A stretch of 64,000 bases of DNA from a virus (IMGVR_UViG_3300034073_005389:124001-188000), one strand, 5' to 3'; shown: positions 1-44,718, counted from the first letter of the stretch. A program made the numbers and translations. Notes: a model not told the origin generated them from the sequence alone.

Positions 1-61
1 TTAATTGTTCTGGTTCAACTACTGAGAGTATTTTACCATCGCCATGTTTAATAAAAGCCAT
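1..61 (-). CDS. Partial CDS, N-terminus of an unknown protein
   Basis: The window begins inside this gene. An ATG at 61-59 opens a frame without a stop to the window edge, giving about 20 residues that start MAFIKHGDGKILSV. A GAGG Shine-Dalgarno sequence lies 5 to 8 nt upstream of the ATG. It follows the 217-aa gene by only 11 nt on the same strand, so it is probably the next gene of the same operon. The fragment is too short to assign a function. Confidence 0.65.
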   Translation of the reverse strand, partial: MAFIKHGDGKILSVVEPEQL

Positions 62-72
62 ATAAACCTCGA

Positions 73-726: not shown

Positions 727-746
727 AATAATATTGTGTTTTATGC

Positions 747-2652: not shown

Positions 2653-3700
2653 ATTTAAGTAAAAATTTTCTACGATTAGAGTTAATTGCAGCAGAAGTTA
2701 ATTCTGTAATAGATGACTTTTTATTCAGTAAAATTTTTGCATTTATTTGATATTCTGGAGAGTCTTCTATTTTATTATTAAAATAATTGATATTTTTTTG
2801 TATAATTTCTTGTGCGGCTTGAACTGCTAAATATTTTGGAGCTGGGAAAGAAAAATTAATTTCTACTTTATTATTGTTTGAGTGAATGCTACAATTAGAA
2901 GAGAGTTCTTGTTCTAAATTAAAAGCCAATCTATTAGCAAATTCTATATTATTAACTATATCAGGAGAGCTGATTTTAATTAAAGCATGATAAGTTGGAA
3001 TATCAGATGCTGCAGACTCAAATTGTTTTATTAATTGTTCTACTTCATTAATATTTGAAGGCTCTTCTGATAATTGTTCTAATTCAGCCATAAAATTTTC
3101 TAATTGTGGTTGAGATAAATTTTTTTCTTCAATTATTTTTTCTATTTTTTGTTGATATTTAGGTAGATTATATTTTTTATAAAAATTTGTTAATCTTTCA
3201 GAATAAACTTCTGGAGGTGCAAGATAGTATTTAGCAGTTCTTTTTGATTTAGGGTCGCTAGACTTTTCTAATCCAGTTAATAATCCTTTAGAAAAATGGT
3301 AAGGATCTGGTTTAGCAGATTTAACTGCTTCCCAGGCATCTGGATATTTTTTCTTAATTAATTGTACATAGTCTCTGACTCCTGATTTTAAATCAGGGTA
3401 AGCTTTATATTTATTTTTAATTTTTTGACCAGGAATACCTGAAGTTTCTTCTACTGTTTTTTCATCAAAAACATATGGGTCATTACCAGTGGCAACAATA
3501 TGACCTACGTTATAATTGCTAATTAATTGAGCGTCACCTATTTCAAAAGCACTATGTGATAATAATAAAGTTAATTGTTCTTGGGTAGGAGGGACTCCTT
3601 CTATTTCAGCAAATACATCTGCAATAGTTTTAGCTAACTCCTCTATAGGAACAGGGGTTTTTTGTCTAGGAACAGATGGTCCGGCGCCTAATTTAAACAT
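2645..3700 (-). CDS. Glucosaminidase / lysozyme-like peptidoglycan hydrolase
   Basis: A 351-residue protein whose first 190 residues resemble the GH73/FlgJ-type muramidase fold. It has SAFEIG at 50-55 (candidate catalytic Glu53), then NYNVGHIVATG and a conserved tail of the domain, YKAYPDLKSGVRDYVQLI, followed by APPEVYSERLTNFYKKY. Residues after about 200 form a separate helical and beta C-terminal domain. No signal peptide or holin gene is visible nearby. Its place beside giant virion-type genes fits a virion-associated wall-piercing enzyme better than a lysis endolysin, though both remain possible. The extreme C-terminus is KFLLKFA. Confidence 0.7.
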   Translation of the reverse strand: MFKLGAGPSVPRQKTPVPIEELAKTIADVFAEIEGVPPTQEQLTLLLSHSAFEIGDAQLISNYNVGHIVATGNDPYVFDEKTVEETSGIPGQKIKNKYKAYPDLKSGVRDYVQLIKKKYPDAWEAVKSAKPDPYHFSKGLLTGLEKSSDPKSKRTAKYYLAPPEVYSERLTNFYKKYNLPKYQQKIEKIIEEKNLSQPQLENFMAELEQLSEEPSNINEVEQLIKQFESAASDIPTYHALIKISSPDIVNNIEFANRLAFNLEQELSSNCSIHSNNNKVEINFSFPAPKYLAVQAAQEIIQKNINYFNNKIEDSPEYQINAKILLNKKSSITELTSAAINSNRRKFLLKFA

Positions 3701-3710
3701 AATTTCCTTA

Positions 3711-5900: not shown

Positions 5901-5931
5901 GTATAATCCCTTTTATCATATAAGGTAATAA

Positions 5932-8499: not shown

Positions 8500-8543
8500 A
8501 AATTTTTCCTTATAAAAATCTAAATATAATATCAGATTATTAA

Positions 8544-11500: not shown

Positions 11501-12269
11501 TAGATGCTGATAAAACTATTCTTAAATTTTTTTTTAAGTCTGTGCTTGCTTTAGGATAAATTTTTTCCCATAAATTTAAAGCAGATAATCTAGAACTAAA
11601 AAGTTGTTGTATCCAATCAGTTAAGCCAGCAGTTTTATAAAATTGTCCATGTTTTTGTATTTTATATTTGGTGTTACTGGTAACATTACCAAGATCTCTT
11701 TGTATGTTTTCTTTTAAATCTTTTAATTTTTTTCTTTCATCTTCAGAAAGATATTCTTCACCTTTAGCTTTAGCTAAATAATTTTTGATTCTCTCTTTCT
11801 GTTCATCGGTCAAATTCTCTGCTAAAGATTTAAAATATTCTTGATTTAAACTAATTGTTAATGAGTCTAAACTTTTTAATAATTGTGCACAGTATAATAC
11901 TTTTTGGTAAAATTGATCTAAATAAGAAATTGCTAACAAATACTCTTTGTTATTATAATTTTGTTGAGCTAAATCTAATACTTTTTTAATAGGTAAATCT
12001 CCAGCATATGGTGCTTGATCGCCCATTTTCTTTCCTAATAAAGTAGCTCTAATTCCGTTATCTACAGAACGCAAATTATTCATTATTAATTGAAATAAAT
12101 CGCTTTTTTTCTCTACTCTAGCTCCACCAAAATTAGCCCACTCTTTAAATGATTCGGTCCATCCCCAATCTTGAGCCAACTTGTTAAATTTATTTTGATT
12201 AGAAAATTGATATTTTTTTTGCATTTTGTCGTTTCCAAATAAAACTCTACTAAATACTGTTTTAACCAT
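8544..12269 (-). CDS. Tandem paralogue 3: giant virion-type protein
   Basis: A 1241-residue paralogue with the shared N-terminal domain (SFKEWANFGGARVEKKSDLF, IRATLLGKKMGDQAPYAG, EYLLAISYLDQFYQKVLYCA, IVLSASNRLLNVLQTNLNKM) and C-terminal block YESPIIVASFIRKYANL. The middle is Ala/Gln-rich, followed by long helical and beta regions not shared with paralogues 1 and 2. The start is uncertain. An ATG at 12224 (MQKKYQFS) has GGAAA 7 nt upstream and lies clear of the terminator-like hairpin at 12278-12301, so it may be the true start. No enzymatic motif is visible. An internal capsid, ejected or tail role is inferred from context. Confidence 0.77.
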   Translation of the reverse strand: MVKTVFSRVLFGNDKMQKKYQFSNQNKFNKLAQDWGWTESFKEWANFGGARVEKKSDLFQLIMNNLRSVDNGIRATLLGKKMGDQAPYAGDLPIKKVLDLAQQNYNNKEYLLAISYLDQFYQKVLYCAQLLKSLDSLTISLNQEYFKSLAENLTDEQKERIKNYLAKAKGEEYLSEDERKKLKDLKENIQRDLGNVTSNTKYKIQKHGQFYKTAGLTDWIQQLFSSRLSALNLWEKIYPKASTDLKKNLRIVLSASNRLLNVLQTNLNKMSQARIDRQVADYVKTSKNIVDQVNQYSSSIDRVNFSQYADQLQNILNNVVPPEQQKEVGNTTSAPSSQLSAQVKNNSNTSAPAPSPAQVAAAPATPAATVAVVQAVVAAQPQIQAAQQQLAAANPATPEIKEAAQQAAASLSNLQQSIEQVRQVGQAEANIPSIEIDLNDLNLSIKPEVKANLENLDRKTPEQLQAVLPDLQRVEEQLNQEQDQPKAREAAGFFNRLIKSIKNMGKAKVEQVQAAAASLINAAQDAQQKLDNIEELSKQQAGELSPVTVEVVAEASKALQDAVPPIPNKSWFARAVISLRDFIGIPANTGAKATIDGKEQEVKIQGIDRESNQISVITPDGKQLSLPPENIEIDEARIRFGKLANLAGITPDVSGVADLDQYIKDKNNFILNNLNKYDDIENPNLAIPIAELLAAIDRVKDIIAKDPEQSKKYSLQEYEKLYDKFFDKFIRNKFNKFKTPVPSQEPSDIPGAEGLESKFKVGDILSISVAELFDFNTKEGFSAINNYVLQLYLEKKGYKKVTEDDLSTEKLSHFTLSDKNIVTIKIESIDEQNKKAFVIINDLKSVLGPKFDSPKIEISFNKLNQFATLSSGEVGVSIPDESSGVPSVVQQSPAQKLYNIIKEKLKTNKINVKIPTEYFFENLTTGMSPSLQNILELKDVKDVKNIKEQVKREVKENIVNNPDYLQAELYSLSSSNDKYDFIIFYQDKTYGPLYGLFENFTERAFPNVIRSMMPEIYQEFESSQGGSESIPDGSQSVQSTIAVAPSVEPEEDLTPLQKAYKFFNLEPTAHLWEIQTIVKELMMRSNNKDYQQKIIDNYRVIADSISSEIKFSVNDKISISKNIFINNLKPQHKSLPEILNNINDPITVTIKEKQNIDNIVYYLVEADIADPTSDTPTTLTALIPEQDLKNAKKASFVYILEKLSYESPIIVASFIRKYANLINKKNKKISYKLKKIASMMV

Positions 12270-12277
12270 AGAAAACC

Positions 12278-12301
12278 AAAAACCCCTTTACAGAGGCTTT
12301 T
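12278..12301 (-). terminator. Rho-independent terminator-like hairpin
   Basis: Read on the minus strand, AAAAGCCTC pairs with GGGGTTTT across the loop TGTAAA, giving 9 bp with two G-U pairs, and runs into a T5 tract. The wobble pairs exist only in minus-strand RNA, matching the direction of the genes. It lies between paralogues 4 and 3 and could reduce transcription between them. Confidence 0.6.
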
Positions 12302-12321
12302 GTTTTTATTTAAGTATTTTT

Positions 12322-15300
12322 TTATTTATTTAATAGTCTTAATCTTCTTAAAAAAGATTGAACAATTATAGGGGATTCTTTATTTTTAATTTGATTAAAT
12401 GCTTTCTTATAGTCTAACTCATCCTCATCTTCTTCTTCAAATTCTTCTTCCTCTTCCCCCAATCCTAATTCTTGTAAAAATTCTCTTTCTAAATCTTCAT
12501 CAGGACCTTCCCCTTCTCCTTCTCCTTGATCTTCTTCCCTTTCTTCTCCCGCAACCTCTTCTTTTTCTACCTCTTCTTCACTTACTTGTTTTCTTATATT
12601 TTTTTTATTTTCTTCAACTATATTTTTTAAAATATTATCTAAATATTCAGCTTTTTCGCTTTCTGATTTATTTTCTATGTCAGTTTGAATTTTTTCAAAT
12701 TTATTTGGAATCAACATGTTTAATAAATTTAATTTTTCATCAATAGTCATTTTTTTAGCAGGAGTTCTAGTTTCAACAATTGGGGAAGGCTTAATAGAAA
12801 CTGCAGGCTCATATCTATAGTCTTTATTACTTAAATAGTTTTCTAAAGTTGTTAAATTTCCTGATATTTGTTTAGTCACTAGACGGCTTTTGATAACTTC
12901 ATCCTCACCTTTTTCTTTATATTTTGCAGTCTCTTCTAATGATAACTCAAAATTTAAACTATTTTTATCTTTATTAAAAGTTAAAATTTTTATTTTTTTT
13001 GGTTGAGTTTGCATCGTTCCTAAAATTTTAAGCTTAGGAATATTTATTTTTTTTGTTTCAATTGGAGCATCTTCAAAAGAAAAAGTATCTCCTGCTTTAA
13101 TATTTTTTAATATTTCTTTTAATTGAGACTGGTTTGTAACCCCTTGCACTGATTCTACTGCTGGAGGAACTTTTTGTTCTGCAGGAGGAGAATCCTCCTC
13201 TGGAGAAAGAGGCGCTTCCTCATCTCTTTCTGTAAGTGTAGGCGGAGATGATGTAAATATTACTTTTTGTATTTTATTATTTTCTAAATCATTTGCATTA
13301 ACTGTAATAGTATGTGTACGATTACCATCAGTAAATGAAACTCTGGCAAATTGCTCATTTTCGTTTTCAATTAAAGTAGTATTTAAAATAAATCCAAAAT
13401 ATTCATCATTCTCAACAGGAGTATACTTAATAGCATCATCATTTTTAATTTCATTTAAATTACTATATTTTGTTAAAGTAAATTTGCTTGAATCAAAAAA
13501 TATAGCAAATCTATCAAGATTTTTTACTGCTTTTGCTGGTGACTGCCCACCTACTTCTGCTGGCGACTCCCCTGCTAGTGGTGGTTGCTCGCCTCCTGCT
13601 ACTGGTGGTTTTGCTGCTGGTTCAATCACTTTAACCAAATAATATTGTTTGGGATTAATTGTAAATATCGGGTCTATATTATCAAATCTTACTTCAATGC
13701 TTCCAGGATTATTATACTCTGCTCTATTTACATTAGTAACTGTTCCAGTTAAAATATTATTATTATTATTTTGCGCCTGTGCCAAAGAAACAAGCCTGTA
13801 TAATTCCATGTATGCTGTAGCAGTTTTAATAACTCCACTAGTATTATCAAATGTAATTCTATCTCCTACGTTATAATCTTTAGTATAAATATATTTTGGT
13901 AAAGCTGTTTTTTGATCGAGTAACTCTAAATGCTGTATAAAAATACTAAAGTTTCTACGACCAATTAAATATTTATGTTTATTTTCTAATGCACTATCAG
14001 AAACATTACAAACATATCTTAAAAATGGAAAATCTACTTGAACTTCTACTGCTGATATAATATTTGTAACTTTTCCTATTAATTGGGATGCAATTACATT
14101 ATCGTCAAAATCTTGTTGTCTAATAAAATTAAGAAAATCTTGAGAAATTCCAGCAACTTTACCCTGTACTATTGTGTCTGGCATAAAGCTAGAAATGTCT
14201 TTTTTAGTAGAGGCGGCTGATGGAGCAGGCTGTTTCTGAGGAGGAGTAGCAGTTTTAGGCGTAGCTCTAATTTTTGATGTTAAATCGTTCTCATAAATCA
14301 CTACCTCATAGCCAGGTCCGCTTGGATGGTTTTCAAAATTAAAATAATAACGATTGGAAATCGTATCGCCCTCTTGTGCTGTGTCTACTTTAACCAAAGT
14401 TCCATTACCCCAATCTGGTTCTTCAATATATTCAATACTGGCATTTTTAAGCCGCTTTTCAATCTTATTTTCAGTCGTACCACCAGGAGCACCAGCACCA
14501 GCACCAGCACCAGCACCAGCACCAGCACCAGCACCAGAAGCACCAGCACCAGAAGCACCAGCACCAGCAGGAGCAGCAGGAGTATTTGTTGAAAACAAAT
14601 TTTGTTGAATCAAATTGTCTTTAGAAGCAGATTCAGGGGATACTTCATCATAACCGTCAGCATTTTTATAATGTAAAAATACATTATTGTTATTGTTTTT
14701 ATCTTCAGAGAATTTAACGGTCTTGTTAATATTGATTTTGCTTGTATCTATGCCAAACATAGGACCTATAGTTCTTAACGCCAGTGGATTTATTACATGC
14801 TCTAAATTAATATTTAAATCTGTTACAGATTGCTTATACTCAATCGCATCTATTAAGTCTTTTAATTTATCTTTTGAAATTAATACGGGGGGGGTGGATC
14901 TTTCTTGAGTAGCTATATATCTATTGTTGTTTCGATCAAACACAATAGCAATAGGTCCTGGTTTTAAACCTTTTAAAATGCTTTTAACACCTCTACCAAC
15001 TGCTTTGGCAGAATACCCGTACATTACATTGTTTGATAATGCACTTGTAATTTCATCAATTTTTTTCTGAGCTTTTATCTGCTCATCTTCTGCAGTTATA
15101 TTTTTAATTATCTGTTTAGTAAAGATATTTGCCTTGGTGTTTCTAGGTAGTAAGAGTGCTTCCCAATCTCCTCTAGTTTTATCTGCTATCTCTTTTTTTA
15201 AAATATATCTATATGGTCTATTATCAGGACCAGTTATCTCAACAACATCTTCCTTTTTAAAAGTCTTTCGTAATTCTGCTGTTATTCTGCCACCTTTAAC

Positions 15301-16902
15301 AACAGTCTTTGTCTCTGGCTCTAGTTCCGCAGGTGCTGCTGCCGCTGCCGGTTCTGCTGCCGCTGGTGCTGCCGCTGCTCCTGCTGCTGCTTCCGGTTCT
15401 GCTGCTTCCAGTGGAGGTGAGGGCTTCGCAGCCGCCGCAGCTTGATTATTTGTATTTTTAACTTGAGTAATTGCATCATCACTTGCCGGAGCAACAACAT
15501 TTTTATTTGTATTTTGACTAGCTAATTTATTTGTAAAAAATGTTTTTAATTCTGCTAAACTTGTACTATATATTGGTCTGTTTGTATCAGATTCTGGCAA
15601 ATTACTAATTTTACTTGCTAAAGAATCTAATAAAGAAATAATGTTAGTAACTTCTTCTTGAGTATAATTACCTTCTTTATTAATTAAATCTTTAGCTTCA
15701 TTTAAACTCTGTTGAATATCAGTAATATTTTGTGGAGTAACAGGTGCTTGACTTAATTGCTGCCGGACTACAGTAGCACGAGCCAACTCACTATCACTAG
15801 CACGAGCTTGAGTTACTGGGACAGTTACATTTTTACCCTCTACCTCTACTACTACCTCACCAACATTTGGTCCAGGAGCAACCACCATTCCAGTAGCAGC
15901 TTGACCATTTACAGGTAAAACAACTGTATTCCCAGGACTAACGTCAACAGGCAATTGACTTTGTAAAGCTGTTGCAGTAGCAGAGTTAGTATTTACTTTA
16001 GGAGCAGCTGGTCTAGATGCATCATCTGCATTTTCAACCGCAGCACCTAAAGAAGCAGCACTAGGAGCCGTAGCTTGCTCTTTAGCTTCTTGCATTACCG
16101 TTTCAGGAATTTTAGTTCCTAGTACTTCTAAGATCTGACTCTTATATGTATTTAAATTTAAACTATTTAGTTTACCACTGTAAACTTGAATTGCATTTAC
16201 CGTGGCATCAGCAAGTAATACATAATTAGTTATGTGCCTTTCTGAACGATATCTAGACATCCTTACTAAATTATTTTTAATAGTATTTAAAATATTATTG
16301 GTAATAGAATATGCTTGTGTTAATACTGCGCGTAACTCTTTGGCAGCAGCTGGATTAATACTAGACCATAACTCTAACGCCGATTTGCGATCATTAAAAA
16401 ATCCACTATTGAAAATATGTGAAATAAAATCAAAAAATGCCGCAGTCTTTACAAAATTATGATCACTAGCTGTAGCTTTCTTGCTATTTAAATAATTACT
16501 AACTTGCTCCGCTTGCTCTGGTGTAATGTTTCCAGCCAAAAATTGTAAATATGCCTTGTTTAAAACAGTTAAATCTTGTTCAATTTTTTTAAATGTTTGA
16601 CATGTATATGCAATCTTAGAATATAATTGATCTAAATCTGATATTACTTGCAAATATTCTAAATTGTCTAAATTCTTTTTAGCACTTCTAAGTAACTCGT
16701 CTGCTGATACGTCGCCACCAAAAGGCATCGCCACGCCAACCGTCTTGCCAAGCAAAGTTGCTCGCACCTCATTATCGTGCTCTCGCAACCTGTCCATCAT
16801 ATCCCTAAAAATATCTACTTCGTTCTCAATCTTGCGAGCCCCAAAATTAGTCCATTCACGAAATAAGTCAGATAAAGATCTTTTTTGTGCAACTTTGTAC
16901 AT
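12322..16902 (-). CDS. Tandem paralogue 4: giant divergent virion-type protein
   Basis: The largest and most divergent paralogue (about 1526 aa). The N-terminal domain is recognisable (LFREWTNFGARKIENEVDIF, VRATLLGKTVGVAMPFGG). The C-terminus keeps the family motif (NKESPIIVQSFLRRLRLL) and is preceded by a highly acidic Glu/Asp/Gly stretch. The middle holds several Ala/Pro/Gly-rich linkers separating beta-rich modules, including a (Gly-Ala)n run. A longer frame to 16914 would use TTG; the ATG at 16902 has GAGG 8 nt upstream and gives MYKVAQKRS, resembling paralogue 1's LLKVAQERS. It is the first of the four genes after the portal gene. Function is unknown. Confidence 0.78.
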   Translation of the reverse strand: MYKVAQKRSLSDLFREWTNFGARKIENEVDIFRDMMDRLREHDNEVRATLLGKTVGVAMPFGGDVSADELLRSAKKNLDNLEYLQVISDLDQLYSKIAYTCQTFKKIEQDLTVLNKAYLQFLAGNITPEQAEQVSNYLNSKKATASDHNFVKTAAFFDFISHIFNSGFFNDRKSALELWSSINPAAAKELRAVLTQAYSITNNILNTIKNNLVRMSRYRSERHITNYVLLADATVNAIQVYSGKLNSLNLNTYKSQILEVLGTKIPETVMQEAKEQATAPSAASLGAAVENADDASRPAAPKVNTNSATATALQSQLPVDVSPGNTVVLPVNGQAATGMVVAPGPNVGEVVVEVEGKNVTVPVTQARASDSELARATVVRQQLSQAPVTPQNITDIQQSLNEAKDLINKEGNYTQEEVTNIISLLDSLASKISNLPESDTNRPIYSTSLAELKTFFTNKLASQNTNKNVVAPASDDAITQVKNTNNQAAAAAKPSPPLEAAEPEAAAGAAAAPAAAEPAAAAAPAELEPETKTVVKGGRITAELRKTFKKEDVVEITGPDNRPYRYILKKEIADKTRGDWEALLLPRNTKANIFTKQIIKNITAEDEQIKAQKKIDEITSALSNNVMYGYSAKAVGRGVKSILKGLKPGPIAIVFDRNNNRYIATQERSTPPVLISKDKLKDLIDAIEYKQSVTDLNINLEHVINPLALRTIGPMFGIDTSKININKTVKFSEDKNNNNNVFLHYKNADGYDEVSPESASKDNLIQQNLFSTNTPAAPAGAGASGAGASGAGAGAGAGAGAGAGAPGGTTENKIEKRLKNASIEYIEEPDWGNGTLVKVDTAQEGDTISNRYYFNFENHPSGPGYEVVIYENDLTSKIRATPKTATPPQKQPAPSAASTKKDISSFMPDTIVQGKVAGISQDFLNFIRQQDFDDNVIASQLIGKVTNIISAVEVQVDFPFLRYVCNVSDSALENKHKYLIGRRNFSIFIQHLELLDQKTALPKYIYTKDYNVGDRITFDNTSGVIKTATAYMELYRLVSLAQAQNNNNNILTGTVTNVNRAEYNNPGSIEVRFDNIDPIFTINPKQYYLVKVIEPAAKPPVAGGEQPPLAGESPAEVGGQSPAKAVKNLDRFAIFFDSSKFTLTKYSNLNEIKNDDAIKYTPVENDEYFGFILNTTLIENENEQFARVSFTDGNRTHTITVNANDLENNKIQKVIFTSSPPTLTERDEEAPLSPEEDSPPAEQKVPPAVESVQGVTNQSQLKEILKNIKAGDTFSFEDAPIETKKINIPKLKILGTMQTQPKKIKILTFNKDKNSLNFELSLEETAKYKEKGEDEVIKSRLVTKQISGNLTTLENYLSNKDYRYEPAVSIKPSPIVETRTPAKKMTIDEKLNLLNMLIPNKFEKIQTDIENKSESEKAEYLDNILKNIVEENKKNIRKQVSEEEVEKEEVAGEEREEDQGEGEGEGPDEDLEREFLQELGLGEEEEEFEEEDEDELDYKKAFNQIKNKESPIIVQSFLRRLRLLNK
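14490..14569 (-). repeat. Hexanucleotide microsatellite encoding Gly-Ala repeats
   Basis: On the plus strand the unit ACCAGC is repeated perfectly several times and then with AGAAGC interruptions. On the coding strand this is GGTGCT, encoding (Gly-Ala)n with some Ser. It is an in-frame low-complexity linker inside paralogue 4 and is prone to slippage without frameshift. Confidence 0.85.
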
Positions 16903-16924
16903 TTTTAACCTCAAAAATATAAAC

Positions 16925-16932
16925 TATTTATA
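16925..16932 (-). promoter_or_regulatory. Candidate T4-type late promoter element
   Basis: The minus strand reads TATAAATA here, identical to the T4 late promoter core, 22 nt before the start codon and just upstream of the GAGG ribosome-binding site of paralogue 4. In such AT-rich DNA a chance match is quite possible. No late sigma gene is recognised in the window, so this is only a candidate. Confidence 0.3.
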
Positions 16933-16962
16933 TGTTAAACTAATAGTATCTTTTTTATTTTT

Positions 16963-19900
16963 TTATGGAGGAGGTGGCGCTTCTCCAGGTGGTGCCCCTA
17001 AATCTGGCGGAGGTCCTCCAGGTGGCGCCTCTCCAGGTAATGGTGCCCCTCCACCTGCACCCTCTTCCACCGGCTCTGGAATCTCGTCTTCCTCATCCAA
17101 TGCACGCAATGTATTCAAATCCAATGCCGCCAATGCCGTCTTTTCTTTCTTGGAAATCTCTGATTGAATTGCTTCCTTGCGCATCTTGCGTACCTCATCG
17201 TCAAACTCTAATCCCAAAGAATGATACAATGTATGCAATGATGCCCGCTTCTGATCTCCCTCGCCCTGTGTCAAAGTACTTAATATGTTAATATAATCCC
17301 CTGTGTCAAACAAAGACATGTGATTCCATGTTATCTCAGGTACTATTAACTGCTTCTCTCCACCCGAATAATCATAAAAACCCTGAATCTTAGATATAGG
17401 TGCAAAAATCTTTCTCTTCAACCAACTAGATAACATGTTCCTAAATTGCATGTACCTTTGACGTAATACATCCAATGCCACACCACCGTTGGCATATGTA
17501 GTGTCAGCTCCACCATCCATTATCACAGATGGTGCCTGTAACCCCGTATAAATCTCTTTGATCAATTGTGTTATGTCCCCAGAAATATCATAAATTCCTG
17601 CCCCATAACCCACTCTCTCTACCGTCACTCCCTCGTGCGTAAATACTTTAAAGTCCTTGTCGTATTGCGCTTCTTCAAAAATATTGCGCCACGCTTCTAA
17701 ATCAGCAAAAGTAGGCTTGAACTCCGCTGAACCTATCTTGACTAGGGTCAATGGATTTATCATATTGTCCGCTTGAGCGTATTTAGAATTGCCTTGAATC
17801 GTAATTTTCCCATTGCGTCGGGTCACAAACAATCCAGTTGGTACCTCAAAACACCAAACTACACCATTATAGTCTTTTTCTATAATTCTGGCCCCGCCAC
17901 CATTGTTATTTTTCTTTGGTAAAGAACTAACGTTTGGCTCAACTCCATAATTTGTATCTGACCACATAACAATATATTCTGTGACAATTCTTTTATCAGA
18001 TTTTGCAGCCGTACTAACACAAATATTTGGCACATAACCTAACTTATAAACAAGCTCATATACATCGTCAGCTAATTGCTTAGAAACAGTAGAGTATCTA
18101 TAATTTTTAGATCCAGTACCGTATTTACTAAATCCTTCAGTACCATCACCTTTTACTAATGCTTCTAATAAAATAGACATTAATTCTGGTTTTAGTTCAA
18201 GTGTCCATCTAGGTAATTTTTTAAAGTGAGAAGATACTTGGTTATTTGTCCCTAACTCATTTGAAAAATGAGCAACAATATCTTTTCCATGAATTGATAC
18301 GCTCCAAATTTCTTTAGGAGTCAAAGCAGAGTATCCTGTTCCTGCGGTTTTAATAAAATGATTTGCTTTTTTACCCATAAAAGTTGCAAATTTAGAAAAT
18401 GCATCTTTCATATCTTGATAACAATCGCTAGAAGTTAATTGATTAACAGAAATAATTGCATCATATCTTCCGTTTTCAAAATTAGAATAAATACATCCTT
18501 CAGATGCCAAATAACCTAATACTTTTAAATATAAGTCTGTAGGAATATTATGCCCACAAACATTAATTGATTCAGGATCATTAGTTAAATTAAAATTAGC
18601 TTTAGAGCTTAATTTGTAACCCTTCTTTTTACTTAAAAGAGAGGATGCTGTTCTTTTCTGAAAATTACCCCATTTTCCATTAGTGCTTTCTTTTACCCAC
18701 ATCTTGTGGTTAGGTGTAACTAAACAGTCTACTTTTTTACCAGTAAAATGAAGCATCTTGCCTTCGTAATGCGACATGTGCATCTCAATTGGCGCGTGAT
18801 ACTCTACCTGATTGTTTTGCGGATTCACACATGCCACTTTGAACCCCTCTTTCATTGACAGTATTTTAATACTGTCTGGGCTCAAGTTTTTACTGTCTTG
18901 GTTCATATTTTTACTGTCTAGGTTCAATAAAACGCCATTAACAAAATTTGAATTAACGTTAATATCTGAGGTAAAATGCAGTAAATCAGTGATTTTCTTG
19001 AATCCTTTGTCGGTTAGAACCTCTGTGTCTTCATCGTAACACTCCCTTAATTTATCAAATAACATAAGCTGCCTGAACACACACACAGGCAGACCGGTTC
19101 CTCTAATTTCGTATGGGCTAATTTTTCTGGCCAAGTGGGAGATATTATAATTTTCCAGCGGGATATTATCTCCACGTTTCACGGAGTCGATGATATGTTG
19201 ATTTAGTTGTTTTTTCTGTTCGATATCGGCGGGTTTATTGGAGAAGATAATTTTCTTTAAATTTTCATCAGGGCGGAGCATGATGAGGGGTTCATCAGCG
19301 ATGACGGTGCGTTTGACGACCATGTAGTCTGGGTTTTGGATTAGTAATCGATCCCATTTACCTTTAGTTTCATTTAATTCTGCGTAGATGAAGGATTCAC
19401 CTAGTAGCCAATATTCTTGGGCTATTTGAACGCAGATATTCATTAGATTAAGTTCTTCGATCATATCGTTGAAGAACTTTTCAATTTCTTTGTTAGGGCA
19501 TTTGATGTTCATTTTGCTGATGGGGTAAGTACTATGTAGATTGATAGCATTATGAACAAAAGGATTTAAAGCATAAAAGCTTCTGCACCAAGCATTAATA
19601 GTGGCACGGTCTCTTGGAAGATTAAGATTGCTATTAAGCCATAGAGGAGAATAGACTTCAGGAGTTTGTTTAACAGAGTCTCCATTACCTCCACGGAAGC
19701 CTCCACCTGTACCAACGACTTGACCTACTTTTTTAAAACCGATAGAAGAGACTACGTTTGAATTTTGGGTAGGAGTATAATTTTTAGATGGGGTAGCGGA
19801 TCCATCACGAAAGAATCCTTGTTCTACTTCATTGGCGAGATTATCTCTTCTAGATTGAGAGACACTTTGAGCCATGAGGGCACTGACTTGAGGGACTTGA

Positions 19901-19971
19901 GATTTATTTTGTAGATATTGTTCAGAATTTGATGGACCTGTCCAAATCTTACCATTTTTTGAAATTGACAT
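16963..19971 (-). CDS. Portal protein interrupted by an intein
   Basis: The 1002-residue precursor consists of N-extein 1-310, intein 311-728 and C-extein 729-1002. Joined exteins (584 aa) match a T4/SPO1-like large portal in size and character: YSPLWLNSNLNLPRDRATIN, NPFVHNAINLHSTYPISKMN, EYWLLGESFIYAEL, and then TGLQAPSVIMDGG with WNHMSLFDTGDYINIL in the C-extein. The portal forms the dodecameric DNA channel at the capsid vertex and docks the terminase encoded upstream. The C-terminus is Pro/Gly-rich. The start has GAGG. Synonymous base choice changes sharply between the two exteins (see findings). Confidence 0.82.
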   Translation of the reverse strand: MSISKNGKIWTGPSNSEQYLQNKSQVPQVSALMAQSVSQSRRDNLANEVEQGFFRDGSATPSKNYTPTQNSNVVSSIGFKKVGQVVGTGGGFRGGNGDSVKQTPEVYSPLWLNSNLNLPRDRATINAWCRSFYALNPFVHNAINLHSTYPISKMNIKCPNKEIEKFFNDMIEELNLMNICVQIAQEYWLLGESFIYAELNETKGKWDRLLIQNPDYMVVKRTVIADEPLIMLRPDENLKKIIFSNKPADIEQKKQLNQHIIDSVKRGDNIPLENYNISHLARKISPYEIRGTGLPVCVFRQLMLFDKLRECYDEDTEVLTDKGFKKITDLLHFTSDINVNSNFVNGVLLNLDSKNMNQDSKNLSPDSIKILSMKEGFKVACVNPQNNQVEYHAPIEMHMSHYEGKMLHFTGKKVDCLVTPNHKMWVKESTNGKWGNFQKRTASSLLSKKKGYKLSSKANFNLTNDPESINVCGHNIPTDLYLKVLGYLASEGCIYSNFENGRYDAIISVNQLTSSDCYQDMKDAFSKFATFMGKKANHFIKTAGTGYSALTPKEIWSVSIHGKDIVAHFSNELGTNNQVSSHFKKLPRWTLELKPELMSILLEALVKGDGTEGFSKYGTGSKNYRYSTVSKQLADDVYELVYKLGYVPNICVSTAAKSDKRIVTEYIVMWSDTNYGVEPNVSSLPKKNNNGGGARIIEKDYNGVVWCFEVPTGLFVTRRNGKITIQGNSKYAQADNMINPLTLVKIGSAEFKPTFADLEAWRNIFEEAQYDKDFKVFTHEGVTVERVGYGAGIYDISGDITQLIKEIYTGLQAPSVIMDGGADTTYANGGVALDVLRQRYMQFRNMLSSWLKRKIFAPISKIQGFYDYSGGEKQLIVPEITWNHMSLFDTGDYINILSTLTQGEGDQKRASLHTLYHSLGLEFDDEVRKMRKEAIQSEISKKEKTALAALDLNTLRALDEEDEIPEPVEEGAGGGAPLPGEAPPGGPPPDLGAPPGEAPPPP
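17788..19041 (-). mobile_element. LAGLIDADG intein within the portal gene
   Basis: The intein is 418 residues. It begins at Cys311 (CYDEDTEVLTDKGFKKI, block A), has TPNH (block B), two DOD endonuclease motifs LGYLASEG and LLEALVKGDG, and block F VVWCFEVPTGLFVTRRNG. It ends in IQGN before Ser729. The junctions read LRE/C and GN/SKY. The penultimate residue is Gly rather than the usual His, while the terminal Asn and the +1 Ser nucleophile are present. The intein should excise itself from the portal precursor, and the endonuclease should promote homing into intein-less portal alleles. Both activities are inferred from motifs. Confidence 0.88.
18861..18925 (-). repeat. Short 21-nt tandem repeat inside intein
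   Basis: Three degenerate units containing TTTTTACTGTCT-GG, spaced 21 nt apart, encode the peptide series DSKNMNQDSKNLSPDS. It lies in the insertion between intein blocks A and B. It looks like local slippage duplication. Confidence 0.6.
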
Positions 19972-20105
19972 GAGACCTCGATTAATAGACTTATACTTTA
20001 TATATACATGATAAATAATATATCAATTTTAAAATTATTAGTTGTTAAATATAATTTAATTATGTTGGTATTTCAATAATATAGTATTTTAAAATAGGAG
20101 ATAAA
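19972..20105. promoter_or_regulatory. Divergent AT-rich promoter region
   Basis: This 134-bp gap separates the minus-strand portal gene from the plus-strand 174-aa gene, so it should hold promoters for at least the plus-strand gene. The plus strand ends with AATATAGTAT and an AGGAG ribosome-binding site before the ATG at 20106. The minus strand contains TGATATAT and ATATATAAAG upstream of the portal GAGG. No single promoter can be assigned by eye in such AT-rich sequence. Confidence 0.45.
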
Positions 20106-37987: not shown

Positions 37988-38332
37988 TCATTTCACTAAT
38001 GTTTGCATTTTATTTGCGTTGAAAACTAAACTTCTGATGCTGTGTACCCTGTGCCAGGGGAACCACATGTCTAGTATAAGTTCCTTAGGAGTCTGTGTCA
38101 ACAGGTCGTTAAATGTTTTAATTATCTCTTCGTCTGATAATTCTGAAAAGAATCCTTTTGCTAAAATAAAACCATTCTGTGAGTCTGGCTTATCTATAGA
38201 AATAAATTTTTGATATGTAGTGCCTGATTTCCCACCGCTAGAATGAGATAGCGATACTAAATAAATAGGTTTTTTATTAATAGCCCCAACTGTAGGAATG
38301 GTAGCTACGCCAATTGAAAAATCTTTATCCAT
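37988..38332 (-). CDS. Hypothetical protein coupled to recA
   Basis: A 114-residue protein. A GTG one codon earlier is possible, but the ATG at 38332 is better: it overlaps the recA stop (TGATG) and has AAAGG upstream. The sequence has beta strands near the start (IYLVSLSHSSGGKSGTTYQK) and helices later. No family is recognised. It is translationally coupled to recA, so a recombination accessory role is possible. Confidence 0.7.
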   Translation of the reverse strand: MDKDFSIGVATIPTVGAINKKPIYLVSLSHSSGGKSGTTYQKFISIDKPDSQNGFILAKGFFSELSDEEIIKTFNDLLTQTPKELILDMWFPWHRVHSIRSLVFNANKMQTLVK

Positions 38333-39492
38333 CACTTTACCTTTCTTTTCTTTTTGCTATCTTCGTCTTCTTCTGATTTATTTTTTAATGCTTCTTGTTC
38401 TTGTCGTTTTGTTTCCCATTTCACATCACGAGCTTCTGAAATTTTTTGAACTAACTCTTCTGCTAAGGCAGGATCCTCTTTAATAGCTTCACAGAACTTT
38501 CCAAATCCAACCCATTTCTTATCACCATATTCATGTGTAACAGATGTTGGCTTGCTAACCACATTATAATCTAATGCTAGTTGTGCAATCTCTTCATGAC
38601 GATCAATTACTCCAATTCCAAAGTCTACTTTAAATTCACATTTTTTTGGCCAAGCACAAAATTTTGATTTTTCTGTAGTTGCTCTTATGGTATGACCAAT
38701 CTTATTATCTTTTTCATCTAAAATCATTGCATCTTTTCTCATCACCGCTTCAAAATATAAATTGGCTGAAAGAAAGTGAGCATATGTATTTCCGCCAGAG
38801 AAAGTATGATCAGAGCCATAAGGATCCATATTGTCTCTTTTATGATTGATAACTAAAAATGGAACATTAGCTTTATTTACTTCTAAAGCAAGCTTCTTAA
38901 ATGTTGTAGTTAAGAATCTTGCCATTAGTGCCATGTTAGCTTTTCCAACAGCAGCTACATCCTCTCCTGGAGGAATTACGGCACCTAATGAATCTAGAAT
39001 AATAAGATTTACATCTATTTCTTTAGAAACAATCTTATCTAAGAGACCCTCTTTCTTTTTACCAACTAAAGCATGGGTTCTAGCATCTTCTTTGGGCTCT
39101 CCTAATAACATCTCGAAGCAACGACGACCGTTAACTGCTAAATCGCCATCAACGATAATAACTCTAGAAGTATCCAATCCTAGTTGCTCTGCCCACTCAA
39201 CGTTAAATGTATTTTCTGCATCAATAAATACTTGTTGAGACTCAGAGTTGAGTTGTTGCGCCTCTTTCATTGCCAACATAGCTAATAAGCTTTTGCCAGA
39301 TCCAGGAGGTCCATATAATTGGATAATCCTGCCTAAAGGATATCCGCCACAACCTAGAATTTCATCCAATAATAGTGATCCGGTAGGGACTGATTTTAAT
39401 TTGACATTTAACCTATCTTTTGCGACTTGATAATTTAATTGCTCATCTGAGTTTGCATAACTTTTAAAAAATGCATCTAGTTTACTTGACAT
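38332..39492 (-). CDS. recA: RecA/UvsX-like recombinase
   Basis: A 386-residue protein. Walker A GPPGSGKS at 61-68, the segment FIDAENTFNVEWAEQLGLD, Walker B NLIILDSLGAV, and a QLALDYNVV-type C-terminal part match RecA-family strand-exchange proteins. The C-terminus is Lys/Glu-rich. It coats ssDNA, pairs homologues and supports recombination-dependent replication together with SSB and SbcCD encoded nearby. GGAG lies upstream of the ATG. Confidence 0.9.
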   Translation of the reverse strand: MSSKLDAFFKSYANSDEQLNYQVAKDRLNVKLKSVPTGSLLLDEILGCGGYPLGRIIQLYGPPGSGKSLLAMLAMKEAQQLNSESQQVFIDAENTFNVEWAEQLGLDTSRVIIVDGDLAVNGRRCFEMLLGEPKEDARTHALVGKKKEGLLDKIVSKEIDVNLIILDSLGAVIPPGEDVAAVGKANMALMARFLTTTFKKLALEVNKANVPFLVINHKRDNMDPYGSDHTFSGGNTYAHFLSANLYFEAVMRKDAMILDEKDNKIGHTIRATTEKSKFCAWPKKCEFKVDFGIGVIDRHEEIAQLALDYNVVSKPTSVTHEYGDKKWVGFGKFCEAIKEDPALAEELVQKISEARDVKWETKRQEQEALKNKSEEDEDSKKKRKVK

Positions 39493-39564
39493 ATTTTCTT
39501 ACTCCAAATAGACGTTGTGTCCGACAGTATATACCCCACATTTGCAGGTTTTAAATATAAAAAA

Positions 39565-42500
39565 TTACTCAACAACACTTGCCCAAGAATCTATTCTTGT
39601 TACTTGTCTTGGTGCTGGTATCGCCCTAGTAACAGTATTGGTTTTTGAATTATCAACGTTCTGACCAGTACTCACTGTTTGAAAACTTAACTGAAAAGAT
39701 GTACTGCTAGCATTAGATACAGCAATCTTACTACCTAAATACGGATCATTAAATACTTGAGTCTCTATACAAGTAGGAATTTGATTTAAAGATATTCCAA
39801 ATATTAATGTCCCGTCTGGCTGCTTTACATTAGTTACATATCCTTGTGATAAATCATTAGGATCTACTGCGTACCTAGCTACTGGACCTCCATTGCTAGA
39901 AGCTAAGTAATCTACTCCCCAAATAGAACCATAACCAATAGAACAAGCATTGCTATTATTTACTAAAGGAGAATAAGTAGAAAAATATACAATCCCATTA
40001 AATAAAACTAAATTTCCAGTTACTCTAGATCCATTATTTAATGGCTGTACCCAATTTTCAGAAACTTTAACAGTTGAATTAACTATAGATTCTTTTAATG
40101 ACCATACTCGATTTACAGCCTGATCTCCATTGCTTAATTGTAATTGCTCTCCTGTAGTAAATAAAATTATATTATTTCCAAAAGAATCTACACTAACAAT
40201 AGGCGCAGTATGAATCGCTTCCCCAGATAAATAATTATCTGTAGGTAAAGAGTAAGCATCCCAAATTAAATCTGCGCTCCATAATTGAGGATCTGAGCTA
40301 GAAACATCTATTCTCCACAGAGATCCATCTGCATCTCCTACATAAATTTTAGAAGCTACTTGCCCTGTTTGAGATGGATATGCTACTGGAATTCCTGTAA
40401 TAGGAGAATCAAATGGCACTACTTTCGACTTACCCGCAGCAACTAAACCTGGAGGTCCTTCTGCATCAGAGCCTCTAAAGTTCATTAATACTTCTCCAGT
40501 ATCTAGTCTAACAATAGTCAATGATCTGCCAGGACCTTCTTGACCATTGTTTTGCCAACACTTGACAGACCCCCGCACTCCATAAGATTCTTTAGGATTA
40601 AAGATAGTATAAGGCTTTGGCTGGCGATTGCAAGCCCCTGCTGCTAGGGGCGACTCTCCGCCTGATAAAATACCTACAGCTATTTCTTTAATTTGACCAC
40701 TGCTGTCTTTAATAGATAAATTAGCAATTGTAGGAGTAGGGGATGTTCTTCCAAATAATTTATTTCCATTTACATCAGTAGATAATTGCCACAAAAATTT
40801 AGGATTAACTGGATCTGTTACATCTAAGGCATAATAAAATCCACCGGCAGGACCACCACCTGCTAACAATATGCTATTCCAAACTGACCCATTATTTGAT
40901 GCCTCAATAACATTTTTCTCATACACTACATCTTTTACAATTGGCGAGCCATCTAATAATATAGATTGCTGATTAAAAGAGCCTAATAAACGAGGTAATA
41001 CAATTGGAGGAATAAAGCTCCATAATTCATTATTTTTTAATAAATCTACTTTTAATAAGTCATTGTTATCATTTGCTGAAACTTTAAAAGCATGTAGTTG
41101 ACCATCTGTAGTTGCCGTGTATAACATTAATGGTCTTTTGCTTTGAGTAACTGCAAAATTTGCGTATGACTCGTCTCTTAAATATTCTTTAGGAGTTCCA
41201 GTTACAAAAGGAGTAGAATGATAAATAGATCCTAATTCGCTACAAGTAGAATTAGCTGGGCAAAAAGCGGGTTCTCTAGTCAAAAAAAAACCTGGTGTAG
41301 TTTCTCCTACATTCCAACGAATTAATCGTAAAGCACATTCTGTAGCACTATCAGTTAAAAACTGATCGCACAAATTAGGTACATTCAACGGATCAATATT
41401 TAATGCTTTTAAATTATTTAAATTAGATAATTGTGTGGAGAAGCTTTGACCATTTAATGGACCAATAATATTTCCAAAAGTAATACCTAAACCATCATTA
41501 CTTAATAAATTTGGTCTAGCACTTCTATCTGAAAAAATATTAACACCCGTATTATTAATATAAGTAATAAATTTTCTTGGATTAGCTATGTCATTAGAAT
41601 TAATATTCGAAGCAAAATCATCTCCCTTTAATGGATCTACAGGGTTAATAACTGTTTGTAATACTCCATTTTGAGAAGAACAAGTATACCTTTTTCTATC
41701 TAAATTGCCCTGCCATAATCCAGTGCCTCCAGGAATAGAGAATGAGGACCCAAATTGATAACCAATAGCTGGTGCATTAGATAAGGAATTAGATGTAACT
41801 GTAGCAGAAGAAAAAACTGGCAATGTTCTACTAGTAGAAGTATTAGTGATATTGGATAATACAGAAGATAAAACAGATTTTAATGAACCAAGATTATCTG
41901 CAAAATATGCTTTTTCTGTGCCGCCATTATAAGCAATTCTATGTAAATTACAACAAGCTTTTAATGTGCCAGATGCAGTAGTACAAATCCCATTAGCAGA
42001 AAAAGCAGTTACAGGATCTACCTGGCTACAATCAAAACCTGCCCCTGATGCTAAACCAAATCCTACTGCAAAAGTTTTAACTTGCTGGTTAATATTCAAA
42101 TCTTTAGCTAATTCATATGCAATTTGTTCTGGCAATGAATAAGGGCATTTGCCTCCAGGAGCAGCGCATTCAGGTCGTAAATCTAAATTAGGCTCTCCAT
42201 CAGAAAGTACGATAATGTAATTTTTTCTACATCCACCTAAAACATATGGATCAAAAGATGGACTAATTGGTTTATTATCAAGATCTTTAGAAAGATCTAA
42301 TTTAAAATATCCTTGAGCGTCTGACAACATACCAGCTAAAGGCGTAGCTCCATAAGGTCTCATGGCGAGCAATGCAGTTTGAATGAACTCTGTTCTAGCT
42401 TTAGAATTAGTTGGAGATTCATCAAATGGTCCAAATGGTACAAATCTACCTTCCCATGGAGGAGCTGCCTGATTACGGGCGCCTACTTCTAATTTTTTAG

Positions 42501-43185
42501 GAGAACATCCTGCTGGATTACCGCTAGCAAACACTCCTCCATTACCCCAATTAGCGTAATAACTCCACAATCCATTCATACCAGAACTAATAGAATAATC
42601 AGGTCCATTAGATCCTGTAGATGAGTCTGGAGAAGTATCAAATGTCATTAGTCCAAATCTAGCTCTATCTCCAAATACGTCTAAAATTCCATCATAAGAT
42701 GGTTTGAAAGCGCCAGGCGAACATAATTTGTTTAAATCATTATATGGATGAATTCTAAAAGCATTGCTTGGAACTGGCCAAGTTAGCCAAGAAAAGGGCA
42801 AAATACCAGGACCTAGAGCACAAATGTTGCCTGCACTATCTTTGGACAAAGGTCGATGATAAGATAAACTATATGGCTCATCGTAAGGCTCTACACTATT
42901 AATAGAATATTCTGCCTTAAAAGAAGATGTTGTTCTTTTTAGTTCTTGGCATGAATAATTATCAAGAGTTCCGTTCAAGACTGTAAGTAAGGTTGCCCAA
43001 CGATTTAATGGAGTAGTAACTCCAGGATTGCATTTAGGCAAAGAATTATCAATCATTCTTTCCATGGACCCAGAACTATCTACTAGCAATAGTACATTAG
43101 GCATGGGAGGATTAATATCTGATTGAGCGAAAGCATTAGAAGAATAACAGATAATAAATAAAATTAGTAATAAATACTTTTTCAT
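39565..43185 (-). CDS. pilY1: PilY1-like secreted pilus-tip adhesin
   Basis: A 1206-residue protein with signal peptide 1-20 (MKKYLLLILFIICYSSNAFA). A von Willebrand A domain has the MIDAS motif DSSGS at 36-40, a later TPLAGML threonine element and the IIVLSDGEPN aspartate. The C-terminal half is a PilY1-type beta-propeller: TTDGQLHAFKVS, ELWSFIPP, GGFYYALDVTDPVNPKFLWQ and YVGDADGSLWRIDVSS. PilY1 proteins sit at type IV pilus tips and mediate adhesion and calcium-dependent retraction control. GAGG precedes the ATG; the AAA+ gene ends 6 nt upstream and recA follows. It is full length and intact, which is very unusual for a phage genome. Confidence 0.93.
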   Translation of the reverse strand: MKKYLLLILFIICYSSNAFAQSDINPPMPNVLLLVDSSGSMERMIDNSLPKCNPGVTTPLNRWATLLTVLNGTLDNYSCQELKRTTSSFKAEYSINSVEPYDEPYSLSYHRPLSKDSAGNICALGPGILPFSWLTWPVPSNAFRIHPYNDLNKLCSPGAFKPSYDGILDVFGDRARFGLMTFDTSPDSSTGSNGPDYSISSGMNGLWSYYANWGNGGVFASGNPAGCSPKKLEVGARNQAAPPWEGRFVPFGPFDESPTNSKARTEFIQTALLAMRPYGATPLAGMLSDAQGYFKLDLSKDLDNKPISPSFDPYVLGGCRKNYIIVLSDGEPNLDLRPECAAPGGKCPYSLPEQIAYELAKDLNINQQVKTFAVGFGLASGAGFDCSQVDPVTAFSANGICTTASGTLKACCNLHRIAYNGGTEKAYFADNLGSLKSVLSSVLSNITNTSTSRTLPVFSSATVTSNSLSNAPAIGYQFGSSFSIPGGTGLWQGNLDRKRYTCSSQNGVLQTVINPVDPLKGDDFASNINSNDIANPRKFITYINNTGVNIFSDRSARPNLLSNDGLGITFGNIIGPLNGQSFSTQLSNLNNLKALNIDPLNVPNLCDQFLTDSATECALRLIRWNVGETTPGFFLTREPAFCPANSTCSELGSIYHSTPFVTGTPKEYLRDESYANFAVTQSKRPLMLYTATTDGQLHAFKVSANDNNDLLKVDLLKNNELWSFIPPIVLPRLLGSFNQQSILLDGSPIVKDVVYEKNVIEASNNGSVWNSILLAGGGPAGGFYYALDVTDPVNPKFLWQLSTDVNGNKLFGRTSPTPTIANLSIKDSSGQIKEIAVGILSGGESPLAAGACNRQPKPYTIFNPKESYGVRGSVKCWQNNGQEGPGRSLTIVRLDTGEVLMNFRGSDAEGPPGLVAAGKSKVVPFDSPITGIPVAYPSQTGQVASKIYVGDADGSLWRIDVSSSDPQLWSADLIWDAYSLPTDNYLSGEAIHTAPIVSVDSFGNNIILFTTGEQLQLSNGDQAVNRVWSLKESIVNSTVKVSENWVQPLNNGSRVTGNLVLFNGIVYFSTYSPLVNNSNACSIGYGSIWGVDYLASSNGGPVARYAVDPNDLSQGYVTNVKQPDGTLIFGISLNQIPTCIETQVFNDPYLGSKIAVSNASSTSFQLSFQTVSTGQNVDNSKTNTVTRAIPAPRQVTRIDSWASVVE

Positions 43186-43191
43186 AAATCC

Positions 43192-44196
43192 TCACTTATC
43201 GGCATAAGAGAATACTTTGTCTAATGACATTCCTTTGGTTTCTTCTACTAATTGTAGATTTTTCAGAATATTCATTCTTACTTCTTCATCTGGTGGACCT
43301 ACTTCTTTCACAAATCTAAATCTAGAGGGTCGGCTTTTGATAGAATCATCTATTTTAGTAATATCATTAGCTGTCATAATAAACATAACTTGTTTATAAT
43401 CATTATGAACGCCATCTAATGCATTAATAAAAGAATCAAAAGTAAATTTAACTTGATCATTTTTCATAGCACATTCTCTACCATGAAAATAATTATCAAA
43501 GTCCTCCATTAAAACAATACATCTTTGAGGAATAGTAGAGAACATTAAAGAAATATCTAAGTTATTGTATTCAGGATTTAAATACACTATGTATATGGGC
43601 AAGCAGTATTTTTTGCTTAAATACTTAACAAACTGTGATTTACCATTACCTGGAGGACCGTATAACAAACATCCTGTTTTTCTTTTTTTACCAGACAAAA
43701 CTAATTTTAAATCTTCTTCAATGTCTTGATAAATTGATTTAGACAAATAAATATTAGGATTAGATTCGCAAATCAGCTGCCCTAATCTATCAGATCCTCT
43801 TGGCACTAAAGCCATGATAGAAATAGTACTATCATCTTGATCTGAGCCATCTAACATATTATCAATTTTGCTTCTTTGCCATCTTGGAAAAATAATATAA
43901 GAAACACTTTCTTTACTTTCCCAACCAGTAGTTAGCAATCTTTCATTTTTACCAAAATAAAAAAAACAGCCATTTAAAAAAACTAAAGCTTCATATATTT
44001 CTGGATATTTAGGATCTTTTACTTTATCCTTAGATAAGACCCAAGCTTTAGAATTATTTTTTTTAATTTTATTAATTAATTTTTTACTTATTTCATTATC
44101 TAGTCTATAATTATTTAAAATTAGATACTTAAATACAGCCCAGCTAGAAACAAGAATTGTGCTAACAATACCAATAATAGTTAAAAAACTATTCAT
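43192..44196 (-). CDS. Membrane-anchored BCS1-like AAA+ ATPase
   Basis: A 334-residue protein. An N-terminal membrane helix (about residues 4-27, FLTIIGIVSTILVSSWAVF) is followed by a BCS1-type middle region (about 50-165). The AAA+ module has Walker A GPPGNGKS at 180-187, Walker B IVLMEDFDN, sensor FIMTAND (Asn277) and arginine fingers in RPSRFRF at 289-295. BCS1 proteins form ring translocases for folded proteins in mitochondria; bacterial and viral homologues are less understood. The C-terminal lid is short. It overlaps no gene but lies 3-6 nt from its neighbours, in the same operon as PilY1. Confidence 0.87.
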   Translation of the reverse strand: MNSFLTIIGIVSTILVSSWAVFKYLILNNYRLDNEISKKLINKIKKNNSKAWVLSKDKVKDPKYPEIYEALVFLNGCFFYFGKNERLLTTGWESKESVSYIIFPRWQRSKIDNMLDGSDQDDSTISIMALVPRGSDRLGQLICESNPNIYLSKSIYQDIEEDLKLVLSGKKRKTGCLLYGPPGNGKSQFVKYLSKKYCLPIYIVYLNPEYNNLDISLMFSTIPQRCIVLMEDFDNYFHGRECAMKNDQVKFTFDSFINALDGVHNDYKQVMFIMTANDITKIDDSIKSRPSRFRFVKEVGPPDEEVRMNILKNLQLVEETKGMSLDKVFSYADK

Positions 44197-44199
44197 AAA

Positions 44200-44718
44200 T
44201 CATTCATATCCTTCTGGAATCTTTTCACGTTCAGTTGCTTGTGTGGGAGTATAGCCCAGAATAGTTCGACGTAAACCTGCGGCAATATCTTTATAATGAT
44301 GGTGGCTTTTTATTATTATATCATATTTCTTTTCTAAGACTACTTTACTAGCTCTAGCTTTTGCTAAGCTAATAGAAATTTCATCTACTTCAGGAGATGA
44401 GTTACCAGCCCAAATTTTCATATCTGTAGTAGTCTTACTACCATCAGGAGCTTTATACTCTAAAGATGCTTTGTTTTTAACAGAATTAATTTTAGATTCT
44501 AAATAACCCACTGTTTTTACTATTTTACCTAAATATTCTGTTAGAATATCAGCTCCTCGCAAAGCTTGTTGTTGTAACAATTCTGCATGAGCTAAATCCA
44601 CTGGGTCTGACTCTTGTAAATGTAATAATACTTCTTGAATTTCAGTTAAGTCAAAATTAACAAAATCTTCTTCTAATTCATTTCCTAAAAAATCGCCTAA
44701 TCTTACCTTGCGACTCAT
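44200..44718 (-). CDS. Hypothetical helical protein, possibly UvsY-like
   Basis: A 172-residue helical protein. The part around residues 70-155 (KASLEYKAPDGSKTTTDMKI, an EVDEISISLAKARASKVVLE helix, then HHHYKDIAAGLRR) is reminiscent of UvsY-family recombination mediators in length and helix pattern, but the match is by eye and weak. UvsY loads the RecA-like UvsX onto SSB-coated DNA, and recA lies two genes away. AGGA precedes the ATG. Confidence 0.7.
   Translation of the reverse strand: MSRKVRLGDFLGNELEEDFVNFDLTEIQEVLLHLQESDPVDLAHAELLQQQALRGADILTEYLGKIVKTVGYLESKINSVKNKASLEYKAPDGSKTTTDMKIWAGNSSPEVDEISISLAKARASKVVLEKKYDIIIKSHHHYKDIAAGLRRTILGYTPTQATEREKIPEGYE

Follow-up and report, generated by a model that had tools for sequence, protein, structure and literature searches.

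What is a protein of the bacterial pilus tip doing among the replication genes of a large phage? PilY1 is found at the tip of type IV pili, the gripping fibres of bacteria, and a PilY1-like gene occupies positions 39565..43185 of the DNA analysed here. This stretch, termed the window, spans 64,000 nucleotides (bases 124001-188000) of a continuous, 361,490-bp IMG/VR virus sequence, and it also encodes a terminase and a portal protein, in keeping with the phage nature of the record. An initial, sequence-only reading proposed that the gene is a full-length PilY1 of a kind not described in phages. All features of the window given below lie on the minus strand, and all phage sequences compared are metagenomic.

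The window encodes an intact, full-length PilY1

The gene has an ATG start codon and a frame that is open over 1206 codons, with zero internal stops. The product scores 33.3 bits against the Pfam T4P_PilY1 model (PF05567; cut-off 28.1, E = 3e-8), and a sequence search of the PDB returned 3hx6, the Pseudomonas aeruginosa PilY1 protein, as its sole match (E = 6e-10). Together with the bacterial homologues described below, these matches identify the gene as an intact, full-length PilY1 of the phage record, as initially proposed. Inspection of the sequence places a Sec signal peptide at residues 1-20 (MKKYLLLILFIICYSSNAFA; 43126..43185), with predicted cleavage before Q, and an AxA cleavage site followed by Q is also present at the N-terminus of the bacterial homologues. 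The leader makes export likely, which agrees with the sequence-only reading.

An alignment with 17 bacterial homologues locates the MIDAS DxSxS motif (DSSGS) at residues 36-40 (43066..43080) and further MIDAS residues at T281 (42343-42345) and D329 (42199-42201). D36, S38, S40, T281 and D329 are all present in the phage protein and almost invariant among the homologues. The propeller and C-terminal region (residues 640-1206; 39568..41268) was modelled from 65 sequences with a pLDDT of 79 and a pTM of 0.85, and when this model was compared with all PDB chains the top match was 3hx6 (8.8e-16), well ahead of generic propellers. A BFVD search with the same model gave no close viral counterpart. 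The propeller and the MIDAS residues of the initial description are thereby borne out; for the vWA domain itself the Pfam VWA models gave no match to the PilY1 protein and a full-length AlphaFold model from 6 sequences reached a pLDDT of 35, so that the vWA fold is suggested by the MIDAS motif and homology.

The C-terminal tail RIDSWASVVE (39568..39597) is kept in the aligned bacterial homologues, and the protein contains 22 cysteines, 21 of them in the mature form. The calcium loop Dx(D/N)xDGxxD is absent from phage PilY1 and from the matching stretch of the 17 aligned bacterial homologues, and no prepilin or pilin gene was recognised in the phage record itself. Across the PilY1 family, an N-terminal vWA/MIDAS region occurs in most members, the calcium loop is common but not universal, and adjoining minor pilins are typical rather than defining.

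The pilY1 gene is part of an insertion in a conserved replication operon

The replication genes of the window include those for a DnaE polymerase, a UvsX/RecA-like recombinase and an SbcCD-like pair, among others. The pilY1 frame starts 6 nt past the stop codon (43192) of a gene for an AAA+ ATPase with an N-terminal hydrophobic segment (43192..44196; assigned from Pfam, PHROG and relatives), and it ends 72 nt ahead of the recA start (39492), which confirms the position given in the sequence-only reading. A ribosome-binding site recognised in the sequence (the GTGAGGATTT region; 43186..43199) overlaps the AAA stop codon.

Among viral contigs, 33 loci with relatives of the recombinase were found, and the order of the dnaE, p277, p119, p172, recA, p115, p229, ruvC and dnaJ homologues is the same in nearly all relatives. 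The junction from p172 to recA is held in some two dozen of these loci, with a gap of mostly 10-70 nt and of 116-221 nt in a few, and neither AAA nor pilY1 was found at the junction in any of these related jumbo phages. Since p172 and recA lie close together there, AAA and pilY1 constitute an insertion in a conserved replication operon. Comparison with relatives delimits this insertion to 4.7 kb (39493..44199), comprising AAA, pilY1 and the 72-nt spacer; its left border is p172 (44200..44718), a phage gene conserved in relatives, and its right border the recombinase gene (38332..39492; Pfam, PHROG and relatives). In two relatives (L043 and L070) the p172-recA gap (9016-10000) is filled by 1 kb of sequence that includes a gene for an HNH endonuclease, and the slot is, judging from these loci, an insertion hot spot.

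Pfam and protein searches of 28 related phage records, many of them fragments, detected no PilY1, which indicates a lineage-specific accessory gene. The Pfam part of this result is weak because PF05567 is insensitive to Polyangiales PilY1, matching in only one of five genomes in which the protein is known to be present; the protein search provides the better negative. A scan of the whole window against Rfam gave no match, and promoter and terminator scans of the pilY1 region gave no more matches than chance.

Relatives of the AAA protein (39-63% identity; best full-length, 62%) occur in other large-phage contigs, and a distinct AAA paralogue is widespread in this phage clade. This distribution indicates a phage source for the AAA gene, unlike pilY1, though both lie inside the same insertion. 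A functional pairing of AAA with PilY1 is unsupported, as the records of the AAA relatives are without PilY1.

The gene derives from a Polyangium-like bacterium and is constrained

Myxococcota homologues were found with a two-row alignment that includes a 3hx6 fragment, the best four being 37-45% identical at full length. When 379 genomes of the Polyangium phylum were searched in six frames, the best matches came from Polyangium-type genomes of 10-13 Mb, with 50-51% identity over residues 8-1206. The tree places phage PilY1 inside a clade of Polyangiaceae with support of 100/100 (96/96 for the inner fork), and a second tree gives a similar placement. The phage branch length of 0.72 compares with 0.70-0.74 for its bacterial neighbours. 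The genes for the bacterial homologues sit directly after FimU-, PilV-, PilW- and PilX-like prepilin genes and are therefore genuine type IVa pilus genes. On the strength of these trees and identities, the phage gene is a capture from a Polyangium-like myxobacterium. A host search with the phage terminase as query gave no match among 184 Polyangium-order genomes.

The closest described group is the Polyangiales PilY1 clade 1.4a (Mahanta et al., 2026; PMC13190605), which shows collinear full-length homology (46-51%) and a similar length. Its members, like phage PilY1, combine MIDAS residues and propeller with a conserved C-terminal tail and no calcium loop, and they have a median of 21 cysteines, against 22 (21 mature) in the phage protein, which the tree nests among Polyangiaceae sequences. 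Length, cysteine count and placement in the trees built here suggest that phage PilY1 fits this clade, although the phage copy is AT-rich and without adjoining minor pilins.

The pilY1 gene of the phage has 35% GC and a GC3 of 0.17, compared with 70% GC for Polyangium pilY1, and its codon usage follows that of the rest of the phage (r = 0.971). This complete amelioration is indicative of long residence in phage. Moreover, 186 of the 193 residues invariant among the 17 bacterial homologues are kept, and the seven changes are all conservative (R/K, S/T, L/I and similar). In a leave-one-out comparison individual bacterial members lose 3 to 18 invariant residues, which shows that the phage copy is constrained like cellular ones. 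Every cysteine conserved in bacteria is retained, as are the MIDAS residues, and identity to the bacterial homologues is even from N- to C-terminus. Together, these features are indicative of an intact adhesin and not a truncated plug. In the collections searched, no other phage carrying exactly this gene was found.

The sequence-only reading had also raised contamination, and an assembly chimera with bacterial DNA might indeed be suggested by a metagenomic record, by bacterial homologues and by a protein that falls inside one bacterial group, the Polyangiaceae. Against this, a gene with 35% GC and phage codon usage is joined cleanly at conserved phage gene borders, with phage genes on its flanks and no breakpoints in a continuous 361-kb record. 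A truly mislabelled record, 'Acinetobacter phage MD-2021a' (INPHARED CAKLQH020000003.1; L261), looks quite different: it carries PilY1 on what is a bacterial chromosome, with rpsP, trmD, truB and a full pilin operon. Phage codon usage and conserved phage borders led to rejection of a chimera, which is scarcely credible, in favour of capture.

Large phages appear to have acquired PilY1 repeatedly

Used alone, the window PilY1 protein gave no match among viral contigs, phages, plasmids and genome contigs. Relatives were reached only via alignments with conserved stretches, so that 'no phage homologue' would have been a false negative. Alignment-based scans of IMG/VR recovered six more contigs with full-length PilY1 (L230, L231, L244, L245, L246 and L247). 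No phage PilY1 was found in the literature, as represented by papers from few subscription journals, and PHROGs holds no family matching the window protein. The initial statement that no described phage version is known agrees with these papers, but six further IMG/VR contigs carry one. A collection of 50,697 phage records gave no match to the window protein, a 3hx6 fragment or the L230 protein, and the only matches to the L247 protein came from the mislabelled bacterial chromosome.

The six further proteins are 1098-1413 aa long, and all have an N-terminal hydrophobic leader and DxSxS, with the propeller present. Phage genes accompany them: terminase, baseplate wedge and primase in the L230 record; terminase and tail sheath in the L247 record, a 328-kb jumbo phage; a tail fibre on contig L244 and a phage-type DNA ligase in its record; a long protein assigned to a PHROG family in the L245 record; and phage helicases in the L246 record. 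A neighbour gene of L231 pilY1 has a 64%-identical counterpart in L246; the phage status of L231 rests otherwise on the IMG/VR label. The six proteins are 23-33% identical to the window PilY1 for L230, L231 and L244-L247, and lie in different gene neighbourhoods.

In the trees, the proteins of L230, L231 and L246 fall with another Myxococcota PilY1 clade (L220/L221), and those of L244 and L245 make up a third branch, in an open fork near the window protein. The trees give no placement for L247 PilY1, which is 20-23% identical to the other phage proteins. Counting low-identity L247 as separate, and with some forks of the trees open, large phages appear to have captured PilY1 at least three times. 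The L244 and L245 proteins share 93% identity with a dN/dS of 0.092, which is direct evidence of purifying selection on one phage PilY1. Furthermore, pilY1 in L230 is directly preceded by a gene for a PilX-like minor pilin (L239, record G520; 14460-15146), which matches PilX_N with E = 8e-5, just below the Pfam cut-off, and is homologous to a Polyangiaceae PilX.

A model for PilY1 function during infection

The reading favoured here, in which belief slightly outweighs doubt, is that the gene specifies a functional, Polyangium-like PilY1 that is exported, attaches to the minor pilins of the host and gives the pili of infected cells a new tip. From gene position, PilY1 would be made in the early or middle replication phase, and from its leader it would enter the periplasm via Sec. 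Its C-terminal half would then dock onto PilX and the minor pilins of the host type IVa pilus machine. Host pilins are the assumed partner, and docking is suggested by the conserved C-terminal half and by the PilX pair in L230. The lack of a recognisable pilin in the phage record, the negative terminase search of Polyangium-order genomes and the lack of PilY1 in the 28 related records weigh against this reading. In Myxococcus xanthus, accumulation of PilY1.3 depends on PilX3 (PMC7541494), and binding of PilX to PilY1 by β-strand complementation has been predicted (PMC13190605).

Pili built during infection would in this way carry a phage-specified tip adhesin, and up to lysis the new tip would change pilus grip, and thereby how the cell adheres or moves or how readily pilus-dependent rivals gain access. 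This tip exchange is proposed because a shifted PilY1 balance in M. xanthus alters what the pilus tip is made of and makes motility independent of exopolysaccharide (PMC9109919).

The main competing explanation is superinfection exclusion, with phage PilY1 capping or jamming the priming complex as a dominant negative, or masking the tip against pilus-dependent phages. Phages do disable type IV pili, PfsE acting on PilC (PMC8764522), Tip and Aqs1 on PilB and Zip on PilZ (PMC11656802), and the pilY1 gene sits in an early/middle operon; exclusion could also result from an altered pilus tip. Jamming needs the docking part only, yet the N-terminal MIDAS half is equally conserved, the known phage inhibitors are small and intracellular, and exclusion is most useful for temperate phages, whereas this phage looks like a lytic jumbo phage. 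Exclusion is accordingly regarded as rather doubtful. Manipulation of host surface sensing or signalling through the vWA domain, away from the pilus tip, is improbable. Surface signalling in Pseudomonas requires the PilY1 vWA domain, and PilY1 signals outside the pilus too (PMC13190605, PMC13001225), but no selection confined to the vWA part was seen, the propeller and C-terminus being kept equally.

A virion component for binding host pili or surface, one of the functions initially suggested, fits the adhesin-like architecture and the use of pili as receptors by phages. The Sec signal peptide and the 21 mature cysteines, conserved ones among them, better suit a protein exported to the envelope, pilY1 is placed with the replication genes, away from terminase and portal and outside the structural module, and the related phage records searched are without PilY1. 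Comparison with phage structural families gave neither a PHROG match nor a close BFVD match, and this role is now disfavoured as very unlikely. Equally remote is a passenger gene with no function for the phage: pilY1 is lineage-specific and missing from the related records searched, but its 3.6-kb frame has stayed open, its codon usage is completely ameliorated and conserved residues are kept, the dN/dS in the L244/L245 phages is 0.092, and unrelated phages appear to have captured PilY1 repeatedly.

Functional tip exchange is preferred over simple blocking, as the whole adhesin half has been retained. The broader proposal is that PilY1 has been captured by large phages on at least three occasions, in one case along with PilX, and serves to rebuild host pilus tips during infection by replacement and not by inhibition, a form of host manipulation not described so far. 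We consider the case for this proposal evenly poised.

Relation to known systems

The family and domain order of phage PilY1 are those of M. xanthus PilY1.3 and P. aeruginosa PilY1, whose role as priming-complex component and tip adhesin is known. Identity is low, the phage propeller being ~18% identical to that of 3hx6 in a structure alignment, and the calcium-binding loop of P. aeruginosa PilY1 is missing from the phage protein, as it is from the Polyangiaceae homologues. Tip, Aqs1, Zip and PfsE are phage gene products that act on host type IV pili, as phage PilY1 would; these are small inhibitors of PilB, PilZ or PilC, whereas phage PilY1 is a 1206-aa captured structural component with a signal peptide. 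To our knowledge, the phage effects on type IV pili that have been described switch the pili off. The PilY1 family itself is known; what appears to be new is that phages have captured it, seemingly as a means of replacing the pilus tip.

The capture of an intact tip adhesin and its long persistence in a phage point to an ability of phages to re-specify what the pili of infected cells grip. This finding also provides a strong clue to the host of an uncultivated jumbo phage clade, namely pilus-bearing Polyangiales. Moreover, the seven phage PilY1 proteins, from different clades, can be set against bacterial ones to learn from evolution which parts of the protein matter.

Additional features of the phage records

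Several further observations were made in these records. The longer gaps ahead of recA (39493-39564 in the window; also L044, L046, L059 and L061) contain similar GATATAG-like stretches together with short inverted repeats, which may be a promoter or an RNA element. In two related jumbo phages (L046:6000-6760 and L051:4350-5000) dnaE is split in two ORFs. The N-terminal part ends GYGFN, followed by CLSALEKIDIYTSDGKFL... in L046 or ATLALFECVNIYTSEG... in L051; the C-terminal part begins MGNIKSVKY... and runs to ...LTSN|SHA. To judge from these sequences, the break looks like a natural split intein.

A tRNA-lysidine-synthase-like gene lies beside an AAA relative (L154:4402-6005) and, 57% identical, near pilY1 (L245:5673-11343). 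L154 and L245 share a metagenome number, and this common gene hints at gene flow among these phages. The phage with both PilX and PilY1 has a long run of genes resembling those for glycosyltransferases, epimerases and sugar-modifying enzymes (L236, record G520; 1-20000), and the PilY1-bearing contigs L253 and L256 (records G523 and G524) have genes resembling the YeaH-SpoVR-PrkA trio, which are normally bacterial stress genes. Finally, many proteins of records G520, G521, G523 and G524 start with a common motif like LRRIIKEEL or LKQLIKELL, perhaps a targeting signal or a cleaved leader.
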